Positions 15,843 through 58,231 of a stretch of 64,000 bases of DNA are shown piece by piece (positions within the stretch are counted from its first letter, which is position 1; every line of letters begins with the position of its first letter). The notes beneath the pieces were generated by a model that saw nothing but the letters and a program-made list of their open reading frames with translations, had not been told where the DNA came from and ran no database searches. The translations under genes were made by a program, and so were the position numbers. Origin of the DNA: Halorubrum sp. CSM-61 (GTDB lineage Archaea > Halobacteriota > Halobacteria > Halobacteriales > Haloferacaceae). The stretch covers positions 329,921 to 393,920 of the forward strand of contig NZ_RJJW01000001.1 of the NCBI RefSeq assembly GCF_003781945.1, given 5' to 3'.

Positions 15843-16140
15843 CTAATAAGCGGTTGACGACGGATCGATGGCGAACACCGCCAAAGCCCCAGCCGCGAGG
15901 ACTCGCGCGGCTCGCTGCGCGCTTCGGTCGCTCGCGTTGCTCGCTCCCTGCAGTGCTTCCGTCGCCGTGCTTCGTCCTCGCGACTGCCCCTTTGAGTCCC
16001 GCCCCGCACAGCACCGCACCTCACGCCTCCCCAGCCTCGTCGCTGGCGGCTGTCGCCGCCAGCGACTCCCTCGCGCGGTGCTCCTCGCGCCCTTATCAGG
16101 GCGCTCGGAGGCACGCGCCACCGCGGTAGTATTTATAAAT
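15843..16140 (-). repeat. Dispersed structured repeat, copy B
   Basis: Same block order as copy A: CAAAG at 15882, CTGCCCCTTTGAGTCCC at 15984-16000. Hairpin 2 (16039-16066) is a perfect 12-bp stem with a 4-nt TGTC loop. Hairpin 3 has a GCGCCC/GGGCGC tip around TTATCA. Hairpin 1 has one C/A mismatch on the + strand (G/U on the - strand). ATTTATAAAT bounds the right end. It lies between the divergent polX and Yip1-like genes. Confidence 0.85.
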
Positions 16141-16212
16141 AGACGCGGTCAGTCTCGGCCTCGAACCGTTCGATGGACAAGACACTTGTCGGATCTCGCG
16201 AATATCCCGCCA

Positions 16213-16962
16213 ATGCCCTCCCTGCTCGCCCCGCTCTCCAGACTCGTCGGTGGCCTCCTCGATCGCTCGCGCGCCGGCTTCCGCCGGCTCAAGCCGGGCG
16301 GTGGAGGCCTCGCAGTGGTCGTCGTCGTGTTGGTCACCCTCGCCACGGCCCTCGGGATCGTCGCGCTCGGCGCCGCCTTCGACGCGACGATCGACCGCGA
16401 GGTGACGGTCGACAACCCCGACCGCCCGCCGGAGACGACCTGCGAGACGTTCGGCGAAGAGGACGACTCGCTGTTCGCCGAGCGGTGCGACCGACCTGAG
16501 CGGATCGACGTGGACGTGGGCGAGGAGCTCCGGGACGCGTCGGGCGAGTACGTCGGCTACGCGGTGATCGGGGTGCCGATCTGGTGGGTGATATTCGCGC
16601 TCGCGCTCCACGGCGGGGCGCGCGTCGCGGGCGGCGCCGGCTCCCTCGGCGACTCGTTCGCGATCGCGGCGTGGGCGCTCGCGGCGGAGCTGGCACGGCT
16701 GGTCGCCGGGCTCGCCGCTATCTGGTACGCGCTCGCGACGACGACGGTCGACGGGACCACGATCGAGGCGATCGCGAACCAGATCGTCGCGGCGATCGCC
16801 GCGATGGAAGGGCCGCTCCTGGGCGCCTCGGCGGTCGTGATCGCGGTCCAGTGGGTCGTGGTCGTCGGCGGGCTGGAGGCGTATCACGACCTCGACCGAG
16901 CGGTCGCCGGCGCGGTCGCGGGCGTCCTCGCGCTGCTCGGGTTCCTGCTCGCGGCGGTGTGA
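16213..16962 (+). CDS. Yip1-domain-like integral membrane protein
   Basis: 249 aa. The start at 16213 gives MPSLLAPLSRLVGGLLDRSR, typical of haloarchaeal YIP1 proteins. A first helix at about 35-58 is followed by an extracellular-looking loop with two cysteines (TTCETFGEEDDSLFAERCD) and four more helices (roughly 118-140, 150-175, 195-215, 225-247). Role unknown. It stands alone, divergent from polX across repeat copy B. Confidence 0.75.
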   Translation: MPSLLAPLSRLVGGLLDRSRAGFRRLKPGGGGLAVVVVVLVTLATALGIVALGAAFDATIDREVTVDNPDRPPETTCETFGEEDDSLFAERCDRPERIDVDVGEELRDASGEYVGYAVIGVPIWWVIFALALHGGARVAGGAGSLGDSFAIAAWALAAELARLVAGLAAIWYALATTTVDGTTIEAIANQIVAAIAAMEGPLLGASAVVIAVQWVVVVGGLEAYHDLDRAVAGAVAGVLALLGFLLAAV

Positions 16963-17053
16963 GGGTCGGCGAGCGAAGGACCGGATTCGCTCCGACTTCG
17001 CGGGCGTCCGTCGATTCGGGAGTTTTTAACCCGGCCGGAGCCCCTCTCCCGAC

Positions 17054-17692
17054 ATGATCCTCTCGGACGCGGACATCCTCGACCGCCTCGCGGAGGGGGA
17101 CCTCGTGGTCGAGCCGCTCGACGACGTCGACCAGCAGGTCCAGCCCGCGAGCGTCGACCTCCGGCTCGGCGAGCGATTCTTAGAGTTCCAGCGCACGAAC
17201 ATCCCCTGTATCCACCCGACCGAGGCCGACGAGGTCGGCGAGTACGTCACGGAGACGCGGGTCCCCGAGGGCGAGGAGTTCATCCTCCATCCGGGCGACT
17301 TCGTGCTCGGAACCACCACGGAGCGCGTCGAGATCCCGCCGGACCTGCTCGCGACCGTCCAGGGCCGGTCCTCGCTCGGGCGGCTCGCGATCGTCATCCA
17401 CGCCACCGCGGGGATCGTCGATCCGGGGTACAAGGGACAGATCACGCTCGAACTGTCGAACCTCGGCACCGCTCCCGTCGCGCTCACCCCCGGGATGCGG
17501 GTCTCGCAGCTCATCTTCACGGAGCTCAAGTCGCCCGCGAACCGCCCGTACGGGACGGAACGCGGCTCGAAGTACCAGGACCAAGACGGCCCGCAGGCCT
17601 CCCGGATCGGCGCCGATCCGGAGTTCAAAGGCGACGGAGGCGAAGACGGCGGGGAGGGCGCCGAGTCCGGCGCCGCGGGGGGACGGCGATGA
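17054..17692 (+). CDS. dcd: dCTP deaminase
   Basis: 212 aa. It matches the dCTP deaminase/dUTPase fold: [32 protein letters not shown], the catalytic and nucleotide-contact segment [26 protein letters not shown] and [16 protein letters not shown]. It converts dCTP to dUTP (or dUMP if bifunctional) for dTMP synthesis. The Gly/Asp/Glu tail after residue 185 is a haloarchaeal extension. Its stop overlaps the thiR start by ATGA (17689-17692). Confidence 0.96.
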
Positions 17693-18597
17693 AGTTCGTC
17701 GAGGAGGTCGTCGTCGAGGAGTTCCTCCCGACGGTGCGCTCGATGCTGGCGGAGGACCTCCGCGACCGCGGCTTCACCCAGCGCGAGGTCGCCGACGCGC
17801 TCGGCATCTCCCAGTCGGCCGTCTCGAAGTACGCCCACGGCGACGTGGCCCGCCACGACCGGATCGTCGCCGACGAGCGCGTCCGCGAGCTCGTGGAACG
17901 CGTGGGCGAGGGGCTCGCGGCGGGGGAGATGACCCCGGTCGCGGCGCTCGTCGAGATCGAGGTGCTGATCCGCCGGCTGGAGGAGGGCGACCTGCTCGCG
18001 GACCTCCACGAGGAGGCGATGCCCGCGCTCGCCGACGCCGAGGTGGAGTTCTCGGTCCACGACCCGGACAGCGGGCTCCGCGAGCGCGAGCGCGTCCTCT
18101 CCTCTGTCCGTCGCGGGCTCCGCACCCTGACGAACGCCTCCGGCTTCGCCGGCCTCATCCCGGACGTCGGCGCCAATGTCGCCGAGTGCCTCGACAACGC
18201 GCGGACGATCGACGACGTGGCGGCCGTGCCCGGTCGCCTCGTCGACGTGAAGGGGCAGGCGATGGTGCCGGGCGAGCCCGAGTTCGGCGTGAGCGAGCAC
18301 GTCGCGACGGTCCTGCTCGCCGCGCGCGAGGCGGGCGCGACCGCCCGCGGCGCCGTGAACGTCCGGTACGCGCCCGAGACTGTCGAGGCGCTCGCAGAGT
18401 CGCATCCGACCGTGGAGTTCGACCCGGAGCGCCCGACCCGGGAAGCGGTCGCCGACGCGGTCGCGGGCGTCGAGCGCTCGGGCGGCGACGAGACCCTCGT
18501 GCTCTACCAGACGGGCGCGGTCGGCGTCGAGCCCATCGTCTACGTGCTCGCGCCGACCGCGGCGGACGCGGCGCGGATCGTCCGCGGACTGCTGTGA
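17689..18597 (+). CDS. thiR: ThiR-type thiamine regulator: HTH domain fused to ThiN domain
   Basis: 302 aa. The N-terminal XRE-like helix-turn-helix ([25 protein letters not shown], about residues 29-53) is followed by a C-terminal ThiN-type domain from about residue 125 ([25 protein letters not shown], then [31 protein letters not shown]). This HTH-ThiN architecture is the archaeal ThiR repressor, which senses thiamine phosphates and controls thiamine synthesis and uptake genes. It is translationally coupled to dcd, with which it has no obvious metabolic link. Confidence 0.9.
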
Positions 18598-48681: not shown

Positions 48682-49341
48682 TCAGTCGTTTTGGCCGTTG
48701 CCGTCCCGCTTGTAGACGGTTTCACCGATCTTCACGCGGTTGATTTGTTCCCCCTTGGGAGGAATGACGCCTTTCCCGCTCTTGTTGGCTGTGATCGTTT
48801 CGGTACGGGGTCCGCCGTTCACGGTCACGACCAACTCGGTGAACTCACCGTGGACGTGAACGCTACCGTTTCCGTTGAATTCCACCTGGCTCACGGGAGC
48901 AACGGGAATTCCGTCGAATGTCCTGGTTTTCTCGACAGACGTCCCGCCGGCGTCCCCGCTGAACTGGAGGGAGAATGCGGCCTCGCCGATCTGTTCGCAG
49001 GTGACAGCGACCCATTCGTCTCCACCGGGCGCGAGCGTGAGCTCCGCCGGCGGCTCCTCACCCGCCACGGTGATATCCTCAACTACTTCGTTGGGTTCCG
49101 CAACCGATACGGTGAGCGTGAGATCGGCGGCGAAAGAGTTCCGGATCTCCACGACATCGGCCGATCGGCCGAAAGCCGTGATCTCGCGTTCCGCTTCCAG
49201 CCCCAGATACGCCTCGTCGTCCTCGACGACGTTCACTTCGACGCCGCGCTCGGCCTCGGCGCTACTGAACGCGCCGGTGCCGATGCTCATCGTACCGGAA
49301 CTCGCGCCGCCGAGCAGCAGGATGACGTGTCGTCGTTTCAT
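48682..49341 (-). CDS. Secreted GTGAFS-signal protein (DUF1102-like), divergent copy
   Basis: 219 aa. The signal region (MKRRHVILLLGGASSGTMSIGTGAFSS) has KRR, a hydrophobic core and the GTGAFS box shared by two proteins at 50494-51721. The mature part starts with ERGVEVNVVEDDEAYLGLEAE, the conserved first strand of this family, then beta-rich sequence and a basic Lys/Gly tail. I read it as a cell-surface subunit handled by the signal peptidase at 54430-55593. It is transcribed away from the main cluster. Confidence 0.72.
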   Translation of the reverse strand: MKRRHVILLLGGASSGTMSIGTGAFSSAEAERGVEVNVVEDDEAYLGLEAEREITAFGRSADVVEIRNSFAADLTLTVSVAEPNEVVEDITVAGEEPPAELTLAPGGDEWVAVTCEQIGEAAFSLQFSGDAGGTSVEKTRTFDGIPVAPVSQVEFNGNGSVHVHGEFTELVVTVNGGPRTETITANKSGKGVIPPKGEQINRVKIGETVYKRDGNGQND

Positions 49342-49443
49342 GTCGAAGGTGGCCTCACGCTTCGTTCATCGTTTGTGACGTGTCCCGACCGTAAGGTTAT
49401 GCACTCCCGGAACCCCGGAAAGGGCCGCTTGAAACACCTCGCC

Positions 49444-50025
49444 TTACGTCAGTTCCGGCGGCTCGTCGGGTTCGCCGACCTTCATCTCGGCGGTGTAGTA
49501 CTTGTGCGTGATCGCCGAGAACGCGAAGGCGACGACGATCGCGATCGTCCACGCCATGTCGGGCAACAGGAGGAACGGCCACGCGTCGAGTCCCACCGCG
49601 GCGGTGAGCGCGACGGCGACGCCCGAGAGGCCGAGGTAGTAGTCGCTCCACGGGATCTCCCGCCCCTCGACCACGTCCATGTACAGGTCCACGTCGGTCA
49701 GCGCGGGCGTCGGCTCGACGACGCCGCGGTCCTTGTTGAACTCCACGACGCCCGCGTCGTCCATCTTCGGCAGGTGCGACTGCTGGAGCGCGGTGTACAC
49801 GCGCTTGCGCTCGTTGCCGGTGATCTCCGCCGTCTCGATCCCGTTTTCCCACGCCGCGATCTGCTCGGCCATGTCGCCGATCGCGACCTGGTCGTTCTCT
49901 TCTCCCTTCAACAGATGCACCGCGAACCGCCGACGCTGGTTCGCCAGTACGTCGAAGAGCTCGTCTTCCGAGATGTCTGTCGCCGGTTCGACCCCTCCCC
50001 CGTCAACCTGTTGCACCGACGCCAT
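49444..50025 (-). CDS. HTH regulator with two membrane helices (DUF7344-like)
   Basis: 193 aa from the ATG at 50025. A winged-helix domain (ISEDELFDVLANQRRRFAVHLLK, then NERKRVYTALQQSHLPKMDDAGVVEFNKDRGVVEPT) is followed by two C-terminal helices (about 130-150, 155-175). Such membrane-tethered ArsR-like regulators are common beside haloarchaeal surface-protein genes. It is divergent from the secreted-protein operon, with a 470-bp AT-richer intergenic region between. Confidence 0.8.
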   Translation of the reverse strand: MASVQQVDGGGVEPATDISEDELFDVLANQRRRFAVHLLKGEENDQVAIGDMAEQIAAWENGIETAEITGNERKRVYTALQQSHLPKMDDAGVVEFNKDRGVVEPTPALTDVDLYMDVVEGREIPWSDYYLGLSGVAVALTAAVGLDAWPFLLLPDMAWTIAIVVAFAFSAITHKYYTAEMKVGEPDEPPELT

Positions 50026-50493
50026 TTCTGTCAGACACATATGAGAGAGCCAACATAAATCCCGTGGTTATGATAAACGGGTAAACTTTCTCCTCGTCAA
50101 AATGGTCTCTGATAGAGACACCATATAATCTCGTATTTCGGCCTGTAACCCGAAATATCGGTATTATTCGAGCTGTCCGAAGAGATCGTATGTGGATAAT
50201 TACCAGATTGTATCAATTTTGAAAATTCGTTTCGATGGCGCTGATCAACGCTTCAAGAGACACCCGAACCCGTCGCGAGTTCGTCTCAGGCTCGGCCTGA
50301 ACCGATCCGATCGGGGTTCAGGCGAAGGCCGAACCCGACGGACGGATCTTCAGCCCCGCCCGGAACTGTTTCTGGAAATTCATAACGATATGGGATAGGG
50401 CCCATGGGTGTAGTAGAGCGACCCCGGGTGACGCGGGACGTCCCGTCGTCGACGGCCCGCGGGTCGTGTGCGGACACAACGAGGTCAACAACA
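50026..50493. other. AT-rich intergenic region with an inverted repeat
   Basis: The first 230 bp are much AT-richer than the rest of the window. An 8-bp perfect inverted repeat (TATTTCGG-N8-CCGAAATA, 50134-50157) is a candidate operator for the divergent HTH gene or the secreted-protein operon. A TATA-like TCATAACGATA near 50379 and the Shine-Dalgarno-like GAGGT at 50481-50485 fit a leadered mRNA for the gene at 50494. I see no ORF. Confidence 0.5.
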
Positions 50494-51183
50494 ATGACAA
50501 ACCGACGCAAGTTCATCGCCGGTCTGGGCGCATTGGCTACGGGTAGTGCGGCTGCAATGGGTACGGGCGCGTTCAGTAGCGTGCAGGCTGATCGCGGAAT
50601 TACGGTCGAGGTCGCCGGGGATTCCGCAGCCCTCCTCTCCCTCGAACCCACTGACAGTCCGAACGCGGACTACGTGAACAGGGACGGAGACGCTCTTTCA
50701 CTCCAGTTCGACGGGTCGCACGCGGAGCAATCCGCCGACGTCTACTCCGGAGATGTTAACGGGCTTAATGCGGATTCCTTCACGACGATCAACAACCTAT
50801 TCGACATTACGAACCGGGGGACTCAGGACATCTTCGTGTACATGCTCCAGGACCCGGACGGAGACGGGACCAATGAGTTGGGCACAGACACAGGGCTCTC
50901 TTTCGCGGCCGGTTCGGCAAACGATTACTACCAAGAGGAAGTCGGTGGAACTGGCCTCCTGAACACCCAAACCAAGAGTGGACTCCCGGATCACCCGATT
51001 CCGGCGGCCATCCGTGTTGACGTCGGGAACACGATGCCTGGCGTCGGTGCCATCTTTGGCGGGTACCTCGGTGACATTACGGAACTCGATCAGGATATTA
51101 CGATCGTTGCAGAGGCTGTGAGCGAGTACGAGCGCGGGGATGAGGTCGCAGCCAACGACGAGGAGTTCGAGCTCCCGTACTGA
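50494..51183 (+). CDS. Secreted GTGAFS-signal protein (DUF1102/TasA-like), first of operon
   Basis: 229 aa from the ATG at 50494, with GAGGT 8 nt upstream. The signal TNRRKFIAGLGALATGSAAAMGTGAFSSVQADRG ends in the family's GTGAFS box. The mature chain begins ITVEVAGDSAALLSLEP and continues as a beta-rich domain with FDITNRGTQDIFVYM and a final DQDITIVAEAVSEYERGD strand. It resembles archaeal DUF1102 proteins, which I recall as relatives of TasA/camelysin and bundling-pilus subunits. GC content and third-position bias are lower than in its neighbours. Confidence 0.75.
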   Translation: MTNRRKFIAGLGALATGSAAAMGTGAFSSVQADRGITVEVAGDSAALLSLEPTDSPNADYVNRDGDALSLQFDGSHAEQSADVYSGDVNGLNADSFTTINNLFDITNRGTQDIFVYMLQDPDGDGTNELGTDTGLSFAAGSANDYYQEEVGGTGLLNTQTKSGLPDHPIPAAIRVDVGNTMPGVGAIFGGYLGDITELDQDITIVAEAVSEYERGDEVAANDEEFELPY

Positions 51184-51187
51184 ACCA

Positions 51188-51721
51188 ATGTTCCACCGCC
51201 GCAAACTGTTGGCTGGAGTCGCAGGCATTACTTCCTCGTCCCTCGCACTCGGAACGGGGGCGTTCAGCCGCGTCTCCGCGCAGCGTGCGGTACACGTTGA
51301 CATCGGCGACGACGACAGTGCATTCCTGCGGTTGGAACCCCTCGTCGACGAAGGAATCGACGGAGAACCGACGAGACGGTCGTTCTCGAATGGTCAGACT
51401 GTCGGCTTCGAAATACCTGGAAACGGAAACGGTGAGAACCCAGATTCCGAAGGCCTTGGGGTTGGTTCCGTCTACGAATTCCGCCGACTCCTGGAGATCT
51501 CCAATCAGGGCACACAGCCCGTAGAGCTCTACAGCACCTACGACGGAGACAACCTCGACGATCTCGCGCTTGTCAGTGACGACCGTGTCCTCAGAGATGA
51601 CCCACCGACACTCGCTGTCGGTGGAAGCATCGACGTCGGACTCTCCATCGATACAGGGGATTCCGAAATCGGAGAGTTTGACGAAACGCTCACAATTGTC
51701 GCAGAAAAGACAGGAAATTGA
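51188..51721 (+). CDS. Secreted GTGAFS-signal protein (DUF1102/TasA-like), second of operon
   Basis: 177 aa from the ATG at 51188, 4 nt after the previous stop. Signal MFHRRKLLAGVAGITSSSLALGTGAFSRVSAQR, then AVHVDIGDDDSAFLRLEP, the same first strand as the upstream protein, and VYEFRRLLEISNQGTQPVELYS matching FDITNRGTQ. It ends EIGEFDETLTIVAEKTGN without an anchor. Tandem, diverged paralogues suggest major and minor subunits of one surface structure. Confidence 0.75.
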   Translation: MFHRRKLLAGVAGITSSSLALGTGAFSRVSAQRAVHVDIGDDDSAFLRLEPLVDEGIDGEPTRRSFSNGQTVGFEIPGNGNGENPDSEGLGVGSVYEFRRLLEISNQGTQPVELYSTYDGDNLDDLALVSDDRVLRDDPPTLAVGGSIDVGLSIDTGDSEIGEFDETLTIVAEKTGN

Positions 51722-51778
51722 GCGGCTCTCGATAGAAAAGGTTCGACTCCGCGGGTGGGTTTCCGGAGAACGGAAGAA

Positions 51779-53332
51779 GTGAAACGATACATCACGGCGT
51801 TCGTGCTGCTCGCCCTCGTGGGAGCGTTTATGCTCCCATCAGCTGCGGCAGCGTTCACTATCTCTCAATCAGACACCCTCGCGAACGACGACCTCGCGGT
51901 CCAGCCGGCCGACGGCCCGAACGGGCAGTACGCCTACTTAAATGACGACGACGAGATCGCGATCGACGTGTCGGCGTCGAACCCGAACATCCGCGACCCC
52001 TCCTTCGAGGGCGTCAGCGTCGGGACGACCGGGACGGTCGACGACGTGTTCACGATCACGTACACGGGCGACGAGTACGCGCACGCGTGGATCGACCATT
52101 CCGGCGAGAACGTCACCTTCGTCACCGAGGGCGACTCGATCGAGGGCGAGGCCAACAACGTCACGCTCGCTCCGGACGAGACGGTCGCGGTCGGGCTCGC
52201 ACTCGACGCGCGCGGCACGGCGGCAGGCACCACGCTCGGCGCCGACGAGTTCTCGATCCGCGCGGAGATCGCGGAGCCCGAGTCGGTCCCGTCGACCTCG
52301 TCCTCCTCGACGGGGGACGGCGACCCGATCACGACGGTCACGTCTCCGAGCGACGACCGGCGGGAGTTCACCGCGAGCGACATCGACCGCGGCGAGACGG
52401 TTCGGTTCGAGGCGGACGGGATGCACCTCGACGGCGGGAACGTCACCCTCGATCGGCTCGACGTGGAGGGCGTCCGAGCCGATAGCGTCGAGGTGAACGC
52501 CGACGGAAGTCGCGATCCCTTCGCGAACGAGAGCGCGCTGGACGCGCCGACGACTCCTCGGTCGATCGCGTACCTCGGCGTGGAACACGACTTCGGCGCC
52601 GACGAGGTCGACGCGATGACGGTCCGCTTCAGCGCCTCGCGCGAGCGGCTCGACGACGCCGGGATCGACCCGGAGAACGTGACGTTCTACCGTCAGACCG
52701 ACGGGGGCGAGTGGACCGAGAAGGGCGCGAGCGTCGTCGGTGAGGAGACGATCGAGAGCCGCGGACTCCCCGAGGACCGCGTGCACTTCCGGGCGACGAC
52801 CGACGAGTTCTCGACGTTCGCGGTCGCGGAGCGCGTCCCCCGGTTCGACGCGACCGAGGCGACTCTCGACACCCCGGCGATCGATCCCGGCGAGGAGGCG
52901 ACCGTCCGGGCGACGGTGGAGAACGGCGGCGGCGTGGCCGGCGAGCGGACGGTGACGCTGACGGTCGACGATGATCCGGTCGCGAACGAGACCGTCGCGC
53001 TGGCGCCGAACGAGACGGCGACCCTCGCGCTCTCGGCCGCGTTCGAGACCGCGGGCGAGTACGACCTCGCGGTCTCCGGGACGGACGCCGGGACCCTGCT
53101 CGTGGGAGATCCGGCGGGCACCGACGGGGATTCGGTCGGTGACGGAGACGCGAGCGGCGGTGGCGACGGAGACGCGCGCTCCGCGACCGGGGGCGAGGGT
53201 ACCGACGGGTCCGGCGGAGGACCGATCGAGGAGCCTGCCGGCATCGATCTCACCGATCTTGGGAGGCTGCTCGCACTCTCCGTGCTTGCCGTTGCCGGAG
53301 TCGAGCTCCTCCGCCGGATATCGCGGCCGTGA
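51779..53332 (+). CDS. Anchored surface protein with DUF1102-like, PGF-pre-PGF-like and CARDB-like parts
   Basis: 517 aa from the GTG at 51779 (VKRYITAFVLLALVGAFMLPSAAAA signal, with GGAG upstream); a GTG at 51755 is the alternative. The first 150 mature residues resemble the two preceding proteins (FTISQSDTLANDDLAVQPAD, ADEFSIRAEIAE). A central domain (SDIDRGETVRFEADGMHLDGGNVTLDRLDVEG...VTFYRQTDGGEW) looks PGF-pre-PGF-like. A CARDB-type domain (IDPGEEATVRATVENGGGVAGERTVTLTV) leads to a Gly/Asp stalk and a C-terminal helix with RRISRP. It could anchor or cap the fibre subunits. Confidence 0.72.
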   Translation: MKRYITAFVLLALVGAFMLPSAAAAFTISQSDTLANDDLAVQPADGPNGQYAYLNDDDEIAIDVSASNPNIRDPSFEGVSVGTTGTVDDVFTITYTGDEYAHAWIDHSGENVTFVTEGDSIEGEANNVTLAPDETVAVGLALDARGTAAGTTLGADEFSIRAEIAEPESVPSTSSSSTGDGDPITTVTSPSDDRREFTASDIDRGETVRFEADGMHLDGGNVTLDRLDVEGVRADSVEVNADGSRDPFANESALDAPTTPRSIAYLGVEHDFGADEVDAMTVRFSASRERLDDAGIDPENVTFYRQTDGGEWTEKGASVVGEETIESRGLPEDRVHFRATTDEFSTFAVAERVPRFDATEATLDTPAIDPGEEATVRATVENGGGVAGERTVTLTVDDDPVANETVALAPNETATLALSAAFETAGEYDLAVSGTDAGTLLVGDPAGTDGDSVGDGDASGGGDGDARSATGGEGTDGSGGGPIEEPAGIDLTDLGRLLALSVLAVAGVELLRRISRP

Positions 53333-53381
53333 ACGCGGCGCCGGCGACAGGCCTTAGCGGCTGGTCCGCGAGGCTCGGAGC

Positions 53382-54320
53382 GTGACGGGCCGCCCGAACG
53401 CACGGAACGACGAGAGCGACGGGAGCGCGGGGGAACGGGACGCCGGCGGTGGCGACCCCAGCGACGCCGGGTTCCGCCGCGAGCTGCTCGCGCGGGTCCG
53501 ACTCGCGGACCTGCTCGCGCTCGCGGTGGTGCCCGCGACCCTCGTCGCCGTCTTCGCGCTCCCGGAGTCCACGCGTCGGTCGCTGGCGTTCGCGTACGCC
53601 GAGCCGACGGTGCGGACCGCCTTCACCGCCCACTACGTCCACCTCGACGCGAGCCACCTCGCCGGCAACGCGGCGGGGTACGCCCTCCTCGCCGGCGTCG
53701 GATACGCGCTCGCGGTGCTGGCCGGCTACCGGCGGTTCTTCCTGGTCGCGCTCGCGACGTTCCTCGCCGCCTTCCCGTTCGTCCTGTCGGCGCTGAACCT
53801 CGCGGTCCCCCGCAACGCGATCGGCTTCGGGTTCTCCGGAGTCAACATGGCGCTCGCGGGGCTGCTCCCGCTCCTGCTCGGCGTGTACGCCCGCGATCGG
53901 TTCTTTCCGGAGGCGTCGGTCCGAACGCTCCCGGCGGCCTTCTTCCCGCTCGTCGGGTGGATGACGCTTCTGGCGGTGCCGGTCTCGTCGGGAGCCCTCG
54001 ACGCTCCCGAACTCGCCGGACTCGCGGGGCCCGCGGCCGCGGTCGCGGGACTCCTGCTCGGTCTGCTGTACGCGTCGAGCGCCGGGGTTCGAATCCGGCA
54101 GGCGATCCGAGAGGCGGTCCGGGCCGTGGTCTCGAACCCCGGATACGGCGACCTGTTCGCGGTCGGAGTCGCCCTGACCGTCGGGTACCAGATCGTCGGG
54201 TTTCCCGGCAATCCGACGAGCGCGGACGGCGTGGTGAACCTGTACGTCCATCTGCTCGGCTTCTGTCTCGGGTTCATCGGGCCGTTCGCCCTGCTCGCGG
54301 CCGGGGCGTTCGAGGAGTGA
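53382..54320 (+). CDS. Rhomboid-like intramembrane serine protease
   Basis: 312 aa from a GTG. The acidic N-tail of about 35 residues precedes six to eight helices. Rhomboid marks are HLAGNAAGYALLAG (HxxxN), the nucleophile in GFGFSGVNMALAG (GxSG) and the catalytic histidine in YVHLLGFCLGFIG. Its place between the anchored surface protein and the signal peptidase suggests that it trims or releases a membrane-anchored substrate of this cluster; this is inference. Confidence 0.82.
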   Translation: MTGRPNARNDESDGSAGERDAGGGDPSDAGFRRELLARVRLADLLALAVVPATLVAVFALPESTRRSLAFAYAEPTVRTAFTAHYVHLDASHLAGNAAGYALLAGVGYALAVLAGYRRFFLVALATFLAAFPFVLSALNLAVPRNAIGFGFSGVNMALAGLLPLLLGVYARDRFFPEASVRTLPAAFFPLVGWMTLLAVPVSSGALDAPELAGLAGPAAAVAGLLLGLLYASSAGVRIRQAIREAVRAVVSNPGYGDLFAVGVALTVGYQIVGFPGNPTSADGVVNLYVHLLGFCLGFIGPFALLAAGAFEE

Positions 54321-54429
54321 CCGGATCTCACTGCGCTGTCACGAACCACGAGTTTATAACGTATGAATGACATTCCATGATCGACGAGAGAGCGACCGAC
54401 CGCGTCGCCAGATCGCCGAGACACGATCC

Positions 54430-55593
54430 ATGTCCCTCAAGCGCACCCTCTCGATAACGTTACAGGTCGCTGCCGCGCTCGTCGTCGTCTCGCTGATCGT
54501 GGGGCAGTTCCTCGGGCAGCCGGTGCTCCTGAGCTACGTCGAGACGGGGAGCATGCAGCCCGTGCTCGACCCGGGCGACGGCTTCGTCGCGATCCCCGCG
54601 CCGCTCGCCGGCGGGATCGGCGTCGGCGACGTGGTGACCTTCGACGCCCAGGAGATCGAGGGCGGCGGGCTGACGACCCACCGCGTCGTCGAGGAGACGG
54701 AACGCGGGTACGTCACGCGCGGGGACAACAATCCGTTCACCGACCAGGACGGCGGCGAGCCCGTCGTGCAGGAGGCCGACGTCGTCGCGAAGGCGCTCAC
54801 GGTGGGAGGAAACGTGGTCGTCATCCCGCACCTCGGCACCGTCGCGATGGGGTTCCAGTCGGCGCTCGACGCCGTCCAGACCCGGCTGGCGGTCACCTTC
54901 GGAGTCCGGTCGCTACAGGGCACGCAGGGGCTCGCGTACGTCCTGTTCGGGCTCTCGGCGGTCGCGTACGCGGTCGACTGGTATCTCGACAGCGGGAGCC
55001 GCGAGACGCGGGAGCGCGACCGCTCCCGCGACGACGGCACCTCGGTGTTCGCGATCGTCGGCGTGCTCGCGCTGGTGTTGATGGCGACCGCGACCGCGGC
55101 GATGGTCGCTCCCGGCGGGACCCAGGAGTACGGCGTCGTGAGCGCCGAGTTCGAGTCCGAGAATCCGACCGTCATCGAGCGCGGTACGAGCCAGGAGTTA
55201 GAGTACGTCGTCCCCAACGCCGGGCTGGTCCCGGTGTACGCGTACGTCGCCCCGCAGAGCCCGGGCGTCGACGTCGAGCCCGAGCGCGTCGACGTCGGCG
55301 GGCGGAGCGAGGCGTCGACGACGGTGACGCTCACCGCGCCCGACGAGACCGGGTACTACCGGCTGTTCGTCGTCGAACACCGGTATCTCGCCGTCTTGCC
55401 GCCGGGCGTGATCGACGAGCTGTACGGGGTCCACCCGTGGGCCCCGCTGGTCGCGATAAACGGGCTCCTCGGCGGCGGCATCGTCGGACTCGGACTGCTG
55501 TTGCTCCGGGGGGAGCCCGCGCGGATACGCTCCCGGGAATCGCGCGCCAAGCCCCCGCTGTACCGCCGCGTCCTCCGCGAGATCTACAGGTGA
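54430..55593 (+). CDS. ER/SipW-type signal peptidase I with fused extracellular domain
   Basis: 387 aa from the ATG at 54430. A signal-anchor helix (about 12-35) is followed by the S26B catalytic region: serine in YVETGSMQPVLDPGD, histidine in GLTTHRVVEETERGYVTRGDNN (His replaces bacterial Lys) and the Asp in the same segment. Another helix at about 165-185 leads to a second helix at about 210-235, then a beta-rich ectodomain (EFESENPTVIERGTSQELEYVVPNAGLVPVYAYV) and a final helix. SipW-type enzymes process TasA-like fibre subunits. The ectodomain fusion makes it nearly twice the usual length. Confidence 0.85.
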   Translation: MSLKRTLSITLQVAAALVVVSLIVGQFLGQPVLLSYVETGSMQPVLDPGDGFVAIPAPLAGGIGVGDVVTFDAQEIEGGGLTTHRVVEETERGYVTRGDNNPFTDQDGGEPVVQEADVVAKALTVGGNVVVIPHLGTVAMGFQSALDAVQTRLAVTFGVRSLQGTQGLAYVLFGLSAVAYAVDWYLDSGSRETRERDRSRDDGTSVFAIVGVLALVLMATATAAMVAPGGTQEYGVVSAEFESENPTVIERGTSQELEYVVPNAGLVPVYAYVAPQSPGVDVEPERVDVGGRSEASTTVTLTAPDETGYYRLFVVEHRYLAVLPPGVIDELYGVHPWAPLVAINGLLGGGIVGLGLLLLRGEPARIRSRESRAKPPLYRRVLREIYR

Positions 55594-55597
55594 CCGA

Positions 55598-56896
55598 ATG
55601 AGCCAGACTCCCCCCAGCGAAACCCGGCTCCGCCTTCGGGCGGTACTGAACGCACAGTTCACCGCGATCCTCGTCGTGTGTCTCGTCGCCGCGGCGGTCG
55701 GGGGCGCGCTCGTCTACACGACCCACGTCGACCCGGGGACCGAGACCGAGACGCGGACCGTCTCGTCGTTGACCGTCGAGACGGAGTACGTCCACTCCGC
55801 CGAGGTGACGGAGCCGAACCCCGTGTTCGACACCGGGACGGTGCTCGAGGACCGGGACACCTACTTCACGCGGGTCGCGCCCGTACTCGACGTCGACGTG
55901 CGGACGAGCTACGCGGCCGACGCCGCGAGCGACGTCGACGTCTCCTTCGAGTCGGCGCTCGTCGTCCGGAACGTCGACGACGGGAGCGGCGAGGGAGGCG
56001 AGGGCGGGACCGTCTACTGGGACGAGCGGGAGCCGCTGGCGACGGAGACGGTCTCGGGCGTCGACCCCGGCGAGACGGCGACCGCGTCGTTCGCGCTCAA
56101 CAGCTCCGAGGTCGCCGCGACGGCCGACGAGATCGAGTCGGAGCTCGGCGCCTCGCCCGGCGAGACGGAGGCGTTCGTCGCGACCGACGTGACCGTGGAG
56201 GGGACGATCGACGGCGAGCCGACCTCGTACGCGCGGACGGTCGAGATGACGATCGACCCCGGCGACGACACGTACACCGTCTCGGAGCCGGGAGTCCAGT
56301 CGGACACGACGGAGCGGACCGAGCCCGTCGCCGTCGAGCGGAGCTACGGGGCCCTCCGCTCCGCGGGCGGACCGCTGCTGTTCCTCGCGGGGCTCGCCGG
56401 GGCCGGCGGGCTGGCGTACGCCCGCCGCGAGGTCGACCTCGCGCTCTCGCCGGCCGAGCGCGAGTACCTGTCGTACCGAGACGACCGCGCCGAGTTCGCG
56501 GAGTGGATCACGGCGATCCGGCTCCCCGAGTCGGTCCACGAGCGCCCCGAGGCCGAGGCGTCGACGCTCCGCGACCTGGTCGACTTCGCGATCGACAGCG
56601 ACACCGGGGTCGTCGAGGACCCGGCGACCGGCGCGTACCACGCCGTGACCGACGAGTTCGTGTACACGTACGCGCCGCCGACGCTCGCGGCCGAGGGCGG
56701 TGACGGGAACGAGGCGACCGACGGAGAAGCGGCTGCCGGCGCGGTCGGCGCCAAGGGGGCGCCCGGCGGCTCCGCGGCGATCGACGACGACGTGGCACTC
56801 GCCGGGCCGTGGACGCGGGCCGGACACGACCCGGGGACCGTCCCCGACGACCGGCCGTCGGCCGCGGAGGGGGCGGCCCTCGACGAAGGGAGGTGA
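55598..56896 (+). CDS. DUF5305 domain membrane protein
   Basis: 432 aa, starting 4 nt after the signal peptidase stop. The N-terminal helix (about 20-42) is followed by a large extracellular beta-rich domain (TETETRTVSSLTVETEYVHSAEVTEPNPVFDTGTVLEDRDTYFTRVAPVLDVDV), a second helix near 265-285, and a cytosolic tail of about 150 residues with a small ordered part (LSPAEREYLSYRDDRAEFAEWITAIRLPES) and disorder after it. DUF5305 proteins accompany SipW-type peptidases in archaea. A partnering or assembly role is inferred. Confidence 0.82.
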   Translation: MSQTPPSETRLRLRAVLNAQFTAILVVCLVAAAVGGALVYTTHVDPGTETETRTVSSLTVETEYVHSAEVTEPNPVFDTGTVLEDRDTYFTRVAPVLDVDVRTSYAADAASDVDVSFESALVVRNVDDGSGEGGEGGTVYWDEREPLATETVSGVDPGETATASFALNSSEVAATADEIESELGASPGETEAFVATDVTVEGTIDGEPTSYARTVEMTIDPGDDTYTVSEPGVQSDTTERTEPVAVERSYGALRSAGGPLLFLAGLAGAGGLAYARREVDLALSPAEREYLSYRDDRAEFAEWITAIRLPESVHERPEAEASTLRDLVDFAIDSDTGVVEDPATGAYHAVTDEFVYTYAPPTLAAEGGDGNEATDGEAAAGAVGAKGAPGGSAAIDDDVALAGPWTRAGHDPGTVPDDRPSAAEGAALDEGR

Positions 56897-56962: not shown

Positions 56963-57865
56963 CTACAGGAACGCCGGTTCCGCGACCGCCTCGCCTTCCG
57001 CCTCGCGCCAGGAGCGCGCCGGCTCCCAGCCGAGCAGCCGCGTCGCCTTCGAGCAGTCGAAGACGGACGCGTCGCCCTCGACGTCGCAGTCGTCCGGGAG
57101 GTCGCCGTGGACCGCCTCGATCGTCGCGGCGGTGTCGCGCCCGAGGAAGTTCTCCGCCGCGGCGACGAGCACCGCCTCGTGGCCCTCGATCGGCGGCTCC
57201 GTGTCGTCCGGCGCGATCGCGGCCTCGGCCGCGGCGATCAGATCGCGGACGTCGACGTACGACCAGCAGTTCCCGCTCAGGTCGGCGGTCTCCGGGTCGA
57301 ACTCCGTCCGCGCGGTTCGGGTCTCCTCGGACCCGGGGTAGGTCACCCACGACGACCGCAGCGAGACGGCGGAGACGCCGTACCGGCGGGCGACCCGCGC
57401 CGCGACCTCCTCGCCGACGACCTTCGAGAGCCCGTAGGGGTCCTCCGGCTCCGTCGGGGTCTCCTCGTCGATCGGGAGGGCGTCGGGGAGCCACTCGTCG
57501 TCCGAGAAGACCGTGCCGTAGAGGCTCTCGCTCGACGCCCACGCGATCCGCGCGCCGACCGCACCCGCGGCGTCGAGGACGTTGTAGGTGCTGACGACGT
57601 TGTTCTCGAAGACCCGCGACCCGGCGTGGCTCTCCGGGTCCGGGATCGCCGCGAGGTGGACTACCGCGTCCGGGTCGGCGGCCTCGATCAGCTGTCTCGT
57701 CTCGCCGTAGTCGGTCAGGTCCGCGGCCTTGAACCCGGCGTTCTCGCGGGTTCCCGGCGGCGTTCGCAGGTCGACGCCGACGACGTCGTGACCGGCGTCC
57801 GCGAAGTGGTCGACGGTCCGGCTGCCGACGCCGCCGCGACTGCCCGTAACGAGGATGGTCGCCAT
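56963..57865 (-). CDS. NAD-dependent epimerase/dehydratase family protein
   Basis: 300 aa from the ATG at 57865. Extended SDR: TILVTGSRGGVGSRTVDHF nucleotide motif, DADAVVHLAAIPDP-type segment, catalytic SSESLYG serine and the YGLSKVVGE YxxxK pair near residue 150. A single cysteine lies in DDCDVEGD. It probably acts on a nucleotide sugar or sugar lactone; the exact reaction is not deducible. It is convergent with the surface cluster. Confidence 0.88.
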   Translation of the reverse strand: MATILVTGSRGGVGSRTVDHFADAGHDVVGVDLRTPPGTRENAGFKAADLTDYGETRQLIEAADPDAVVHLAAIPDPESHAGSRVFENNVVSTYNVLDAAGAVGARIAWASSESLYGTVFSDDEWLPDALPIDEETPTEPEDPYGLSKVVGEEVAARVARRYGVSAVSLRSSWVTYPGSEETRTARTEFDPETADLSGNCWSYVDVRDLIAAAEAAIAPDDTEPPIEGHEAVLVAAAENFLGRDTAATIEAVHGDLPDDCDVEGDASVFDCSKATRLLGWEPARSWREAEGEAVAEPAFL

Positions 57866-57980
57866 ACAGAGGGGTCGCGGAGCGTCGCACCTTACTCCGG
57901 CGATCCGGCCGCGGCGCGGACCGTCGGCGAAGGCTCGGGAAAGTAACCTACTTGAGTGCGGGCGGGCAAGCGTCGAGTGC

Positions 57981-58130
57981 AGTCCCGTGGTGTAGTGGCC
58001 AATCATAATGGCCTTTGGAGGGAATCCGTCGATTTCCGCGGCTAAGACGCGATCACAGTCCGTCTTTGCGGGGACAGTCGTCGGGTGCCCGGAGTCAGCC
58101 ATTGACGGCGGTTCGAATCCGCCCGGGACT
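57981..58130 (+). tRNA. tRNA-Gln (TTG) with a 78-nt intron
   Basis: Acceptor AGTCCCG (57981-57987) pairs with CGGGACT (58124-58130). The anticodon stem ATGGC/GCCAT encloses the loop CTTTGGA with anticodon TTG at 58015-58017. The T arm is GGCGG-TTCGAAT-CCGCC. The canonical intron after position 37 runs about 58019-58096, leaving a 72-nt mature tRNA without encoded CCA. I did not verify the bulge-helix-bulge fold at the splice sites. Confidence 0.93.
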
Positions 58131-58231
58131 ATTCTCCGAGCGAAGTGAGGACGAATAGTCGCACTGCGGATTCGAATCTGGGAACGGAGCGAAGCGGAGT
58201 GACCGCGGTTCGAATCCGCCCGGGACTATTC
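58108..58231 (+). repeat. 27-bp direct repeat of the tRNA-Gln 3' end (att-like)
   Basis: 58108-58134 (T arm to just beyond the tRNA end) is repeated perfectly at 58205-58231, 97 bp downstream. Duplication of a tRNA 3' end is the usual footprint of a tRNA-targeting integrase. Only 70 bp lie between the copies, so any element is gone. A third partial echo (GCGGATTCGAATC) lies near 58166. Confidence 0.8.

Follow-up and report, generated by a model that had tools for sequence, protein, structure and literature searches.

A probable divergent Tat-fimbria-type pilus locus with a rhomboid-like protease in Halorubrum sp. CSM-61

We have analyzed a 64,000-nucleotide stretch of the Halorubrum sp. CSM-61 genome (contig NZ_RJJW01000001.1, positions 329,921 to 393,920; below, the window), in which a cluster of genes at window positions 48682–56896 had been proposed to specify a surface fibre system (below, the original prediction). 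The cluster is compared here with the Tat-fimbriae (tafi) of haloarchaea (Tat, twin-arginine translocation). All eight open reading frames (ORFs) proved real, at or near the coordinates given earlier and in the same order: three secreted proteins, an anchored surface protein, a rhomboid-like protease, a SipW-class peptidase, a DUF5305 protein and a divergent helix-turn-helix (HTH) protein, as the original prediction had listed them. The A48 and HTH genes run left, and those of B50, C51, D51, the rhomboid, the peptidase and the DUF5305 protein run right. In most places the genes are separated by about 4–49 bases, which is consistent with one transcription unit. The features (TM, transmembrane) are as follows:

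48682–49341, minus strand: A48, secreted protein with a tafi-type Tat/SipW signal and N-terminal strand; predicted cleavage after A24
49444–50040, minus strand: DUF7344 winged-helix-like putative regulator with two C-terminal TM segments found by TM scan (PF24035, 1e-30), divergent from the subunit genes
50041–50493, no strand: AT-rich region (52% GC) between the divergent genes, presumably promoter/operator by its placement
50494–51183, plus strand: B50, pilin-like subunit, of this set the nearest to the Tafi pilin; signal 50494–50571, predicted cleavage after A26
51188–51721, plus strand: C51, second pilin-like subunit; signal 51188–51262, predicted cleavage after A25
51755–53332, plus strand: D51, putative base/anchor protein with a pilin-like N domain (about 40–172), PGF-pre-PGF, CARDB, a disordered linker and a C-terminal EEPxG-TM-RR tail
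53222–53332, plus strand: sorting-like C-terminal tail of D51, GPIEEPAGIDL...TM...LLRRISRP, conserved in orthologues
53382–54320, plus strand: rhomboid-like intramembrane serine protease with HxxxN, GxSG and H...G motifs
54430–55593, plus strand: SipW-class archaeal signal peptidase I (TGSMxP Ser, THR His, GDNN Asp) with an extra C-terminal TM-ectodomain-TM part
55598–56896, plus strand: DUF5305 membrane protein (TM, ectodomain and C-terminal part; PF17231, 4e-55), the putative partner of the peptidase

As had been predicted, A48, B50 and C51 have in common a signal of the form MxRR...GTGAF(S) and a first strand, xADRxVxVxVxxDxxAxLxL. The shared GTGAF(S) ending had been recognized before; the Tat-like character of the signals, visible in their twin-arginine motifs (RRKF/RRKL/RRHV), had not been drawn out. 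Among 88 related proteins, the residues R (position −22), A (−1) and F (0) each occur in 86–87, and the strand that follows the presumed cut, ADRxVxVxVADDxxAYLxL, is strongly conserved. Since twin-arginine motifs are combined with a conserved GTGA|F site, export is most likely through Tat, followed by SipW-type cleavage.

Tat-fimbriae of haloarchaea have been described (Galeva et al. 2025, iScience 28:111793, as cited in PMC12687288), and PDB entry 9P0A, released in July 2025, bears the title “Structure of Natrinema sp. J7-2 Tafi pilus” (obtained via Foldseek). A profile built from 70 relatives of the subunits matched 9P0A with E = 5e-36, the sole PDB sequence far above the rest; the runner-up matches were carbohydrate-binding modules (E 0.006–0.015). 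9P0A also matched B50 alone at 1.4e-11 (phmmer) and C51 at 1.1e-4, and profile comparison placed C51 in the same family as B50. In the 9P0A chain, 188 of 215 residues are modelled; the 27 that are absent match in number the segment leading to GTGA|F, a hint that the mature chain starts at F.

NCBIfam holds TafA, TafC, TafE and TafF models with curated equivalog cut-offs, which we take to be models of Tat-fimbria proteins. These models matched B50, C51, A48 and D51, the best E per protein ranging from 8e-18 to 2e-9. B50 and C51 were matched by TafE (8e-18 and 6e-10) and A48 by TafA (8e-11), TafE (7e-10) and TafC (4e-8). Thus, the statement that such a system had not been studied in haloarchaea does not hold: Tat-fimbriae are described, have NCBIfam models, and one of them has a solved structure, 9P0A.

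A congeneric genome, G013, carries two loci of this kind. One, L033, is a tafi locus that exceeds the cut-offs of TafA (209 vs 190 bits), TafE (232 vs 155) and TafC (462 vs 410) and lies below that of TafF (299 vs 420); it also contains a DUF7344 HTH and a SipW-type peptidase. The other, L034, is orthologous to the window locus (peptidases 82–85% identical). Because both are present in G013, we class the window locus, by sequence, as a paralogous and divergent tafi-type locus. In the window's own genome, the TafE model matched only A48, B50 and C51, and no bona fide tafi locus was found elsewhere. The locus resembles Tat-fimbriae in subunit homology, in the RR signal with its GTGAF site and in the TafF-like base protein, and it resembles the tafi locus of the congener in that DUF7344 HTH and SipW-type peptidase families adjoin the structural genes. 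It differs from them in lacking a TafC/LamG protein, in the sub-cut-off scores of all its proteins, in the PGF-pre-PGF, CARDB and EEPxG-TM-RR tail of D51 and in having a rhomboid and DUF5305 in the operon. The kind of system is therefore already known, and the base protein and membrane protease add a new anchoring idea.

An AlphaFold2 (AF2) model of B50 is a beta-sandwich (pLDDT 70, pTM 0.65). The best solved Foldseek matches of this model were FimA structures, including self-complemented forms (best 1e-4), and 9P0A (1.6e-3); the bundling pilus of Pyrobaculum (7UEG) matched weakly (E 0.053, prob 0.69). Two observations bear on donor-strand exchange in these subunits, the N-strand conserved in the 88 relatives and the FimA-like predicted fold of B50. 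TasA was absent from the 50 fold matches listed for this model, and no Pfam match to the TasA/camelysin family at E<=1 was found among the locus proteins, so direct homology to TasA was rejected. Of the original proposal of a TasA- or bundling-pilus-like fibre, the kind of fibre survives, on the 9P0A profile match and on the FimA and weak 7UEG folds, and direct membership in the TasA family does not.

A48 stands apart. The three subunits had been treated as equals, which suits B50 and C51, both pilin-like; A48 fits the pilin profile over residues 1–53 only. Its homologues or positional counterparts possess further domains (LamG in the case of TafC, VWA in that of a distant one), and it adjoins the HTH gene, which is also where TafC lies in the tafi locus of the congener. 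Because of these added domains, our best guess from sequence is that A48 is a candidate minor, tip or adhesive subunit.

Taken together, we consider it very probable that the locus encodes a divergent tafi-type pilus. Several observations weigh against this conclusion: the Taf scores are all under their cut-offs (TafE 65 vs 155, TafA 42 vs 190, TafC 33 vs 410, TafF 37 vs 420 bits), the B50 model is of moderate confidence and reaches TM-scores of no more than 0.3–0.5 with known pilins, the body of A48 falls outside the pilin profile, and the position and number of subunits differ among loci. One could also imagine that the secreted proteins are soluble or cell-wall-associated, or form a cellulosome-like surface complex with carbohydrate-binding modules, and merely share a SipW-type signal and a DUF1102-like beta-sandwich. 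The runner-up profile matches and the missing pilin body of A48 would suit this explanation; however, the profile match to a solved pilus subunit is better than any other by 30 orders of magnitude, and the tafi locus has counterparts of the base-type protein, peptidase and HTH, which leaves this explanation very unlikely.

D51 combines pilin-like and anchoring features. Its N-domain matches the pilin profile at 99.3% (hhalign), making it a relative of the pilins; DUF1102 (24.6 bits, cut-off 22.2), CARDB (2e-6), PGF_pre_PGF (30 bits) and TafF (2e-9) matches were also found. The AF2 model (pLDDT 80) contains the pilin-like N-domain, PGF-pre-PGF, CARDB, the disordered linker and a TM helix, and a fold search with the whole chain returned generic beta-domain matches only. 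In orthologues, the C-terminal end consists of an acidic linker, EEPxG, a TM helix and RR; no PGF-CTERM was detected on D51 with NCBIfam. The neighbouring rhomboid has both the GxSG serine and the last-TM histidine, and its homologues keep GxSG in 64/64 and H..G...G in 44/64 cases. Curated rhomboid family models gave no match except rhombosortase TIGR03902, which was far from its threshold (E 0.013, 15.4 vs 84 bits). In one related genome the rhomboid gene (L053:8294–8947, plus strand) is apparently split over two frames by a frameshift or a sequencing error.

The EEPxG-TM-RR motif is found on 48 of 51 base proteins accompanied by a rhomboid vs 2 of 9 without one, the sequences being related and not independent. 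In another locus, L157, a TafF-like base protein (15994–18228, plus strand) ends in a true PGF-CTERM (TIGR04126, 5e-11); the 19 kb of this locus yielded no rhomboid. Since the motif tracks with the rhomboid and PGF-CTERM replaces it in L157, we infer that the tail of D51 acts as a sorting signal and that the rhomboid is the protease for it. The arrangement recalls the rhombosortase/GlyGly-CTERM and archaeosortase/PGF-CTERM systems, in which a motif-TM-Arg tail likewise stands beside an intramembrane protease; unlike in those systems, the rhombosortase model falls far under its cut-off and D51 has no PGF_CTERM match.

The original prediction spoke of assembly and release. Release of fibres or subunits from the cell by the rhomboid, instead of maturation of an anchor, accords with the nature of rhomboids as intramembrane proteases, whose catalytic motifs are conserved here, and with the C-terminal TM of D51. 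Yet the conserved motif-TM-RR tail resembles known sorting signals, and the related base protein of L157 carries PGF-CTERM in a locus with no detected rhomboid; release is possible but rather unlikely, and sorting or anchoring of D51 fits the tail evidence better. The rhomboid and DUF5305 could also be unrelated passengers of a system made up of the subunits, peptidase and HTH only, as several loci have no rhomboid and, of 24 strong rhomboid homologues, 16 are within 2.5 kb of a peptidase or DUF5305 gene and the other 8 elsewhere. This we regard as quite improbable: in a family survey that left out the window's own genome, 43 of 55 DUF5305 genes are within 2.5 kb of a peptidase gene and 42 genomes have both, and the rhomboid tracks with the D51 tail motif, a count uncorrected for relatedness.

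The peptidase is of the Ser/His type, as predicted, with an Asp motif as well, and exceeds the cut-off of TIGR02228 (54.6 vs 51.9 bits); its match to the SipW model is weak (1e-6) and does not reach that strict model (28 vs 190 bits). Homologues keep SM.P in 98/105, THR in 105/105 and GD[NA]N in 103/105 cases. The ORF could begin at 54367, but the alignment with most orthologues sets in only at about residue 18–22, which makes the internal Met at 54430 the probable true start. This is the single gene of its class in the genome. The HTH protein, a DUF7344 member with two hydrophobic segments, is likely membrane-linked, as had been proposed; most related loci have the same gene, and so does the tafi locus of the congener.

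A survey of co-occurrence, which the original prediction had suggested, found that the families recur together and in order. The arrangement A48, HTH, one to three subunits, D51, rhomboid, peptidase and DUF5305 is repeated throughout Halorubrum and in Haloparvum and Halobellus records, and the gene set is therefore no chance grouping. Within the family, the peptidase is present in 46/60 and DUF5305 in 44/60 genomes; 42 long loci retrieved via the peptidase contain DUF5305 (38), the HTH (38), a subunit (36) and the rhomboid (32). By peptidase, the nearest named genomes are Halorubrum amylolyticum and H. salipaludis (93%).

The subunits vary far more than the machinery. Between B50 and its counterparts in orthologous loci, the signal is 63–96%, the N-strand 30–61% and the remainder 20–27% identical, vs 71–89% for the peptidase and 54–79% for the rhomboid. 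GC content at third codon positions (GC3) is 0.62–0.70 in A48, HTH, B50 and C51 vs 0.89–0.96 from D51 onward, and subunit genes switch place around the HTH between genomes. These contrasts in identity and GC3, together with the relocation of subunit genes, suggest exposed, exchangeable subunits with hypervariable bodies riding on a conserved machine. Both GC and GC3 drop sharply at 48682–51721, in the subunit and HTH genes and 50041–50493, relative to the flanking machinery genes. A viral or plasmid origin of the locus was considered and rejected: there was no phage match. Distant tafi-type pilins are encoded on two Haloarcula plasmid records, CP119786.1 and NZ_CP073370.1.

Beyond the locus, an intron-containing tRNA (Rfam RF00005, 47 bits), not called by ARAGORN, lies at 57981–58131 on the plus strand; its anticodon loop, CTTTGGA, makes it probably tRNA-Gln(TTG). 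A long ORF on the opposite strand (56963–58102) overlaps with this tRNA at its upstream end, and the true start of the ORF is likely internal.

Outside the haloarchaea, DUF5305 is found within the same phylum, in which four loci (L155, L156, L161 and L163, in genomes of about 2 Mb) contain a DUF7344 HTH, several subunits, a SipW-type peptidase and DUF5305. The subunits encoded there are homologues along their entire length, one at 99.1% (hhalign) and with a DUF1102 score of 149 bits. Unlike those of the window locus, their signals have no RR and are Sec-like (...GADF); no rhomboid was detected in these loci. One of their subunits has an integrin-type VWA domain. Because the same gene set occurs there with Sec-like signals, tafi looks, from sequence, like an offshoot, adapted to Tat, of a more ancient fibre system.

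More distant parallels exist. Archaeal bundling pili, represented by AbpA of Pyrobaculum calidifontis (7UEG), share a weak fold match and SipW/TasA-type logic, but AbpA comes from a different phylum and had no sequence-level match in the PDB search. TasA fibres of Bacillus are donor-strand fibres (PMC9674648). The window locus resembles the Bacillus TasA/TapA/SipW system in combining a SipW-class peptidase with probable donor-strand fibres, and differs from it in having Tat rather than Sec signals and no TapA homologue seen. The predicted cut, which follows a GTxA site and precedes an aromatic residue, is another point in common with TasA.

Homology, signals, synteny and fold class are direct outcomes of the tools used; for export through Tat in this strain, the sequence in which cleavage and assembly take place, strand donation between these subunits and the roles of the rhomboid, DUF5305 and HTH, we propose the following model. 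The pilin-like B50 and C51, with A48 as a minor or tip protein, would fold in the cytoplasm and be exported by Tat. The SipW-type peptidase would cut them at GTGA|F, freeing the conserved N-terminal strand, which would complete the open beta-sandwich of a neighbouring subunit and so build the fibre. D51, with its pilin-like N-domain and membrane tail, would cap the fibre and anchor it at the cell surface, its EEPxG-TM-RR tail being most likely processed by the rhomboid. DUF5305 and the peptidase ectodomain are likely to form a membrane platform, and the DUF7344 protein is likely a membrane-linked regulator. More tentatively, and with somewhat less than even confidence, we suggest that the rhomboid is the archaeal equivalent of rhombosortase, recognizing this tail and fixing the fibre to the envelope, and, more broadly, that one old fibre-assembly system of the phylum (DUF1102 pilin, DUF5305 platform, DUF7344 regulator and SipW-type peptidase) changed from Sec to Tat export in haloarchaea, its subunits diversifying as exchangeable cassettes on a conserved machine.

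DUF1102, DUF5305, DUF7344 and the ectodomain-bearing signal peptidase are thereby linked to a solved class of archaeal pilus, and each gains a testable role. The EEPxG tail is a concrete suggested substrate for a haloarchaeal rhomboid, and this rhomboid-tail pair and the Sec/Tat split are the parts worth following. The system may provide a natural example of a pilus exported by different routes in different lineages, with fast-changing surface subunits riding on a slow-changing machine.

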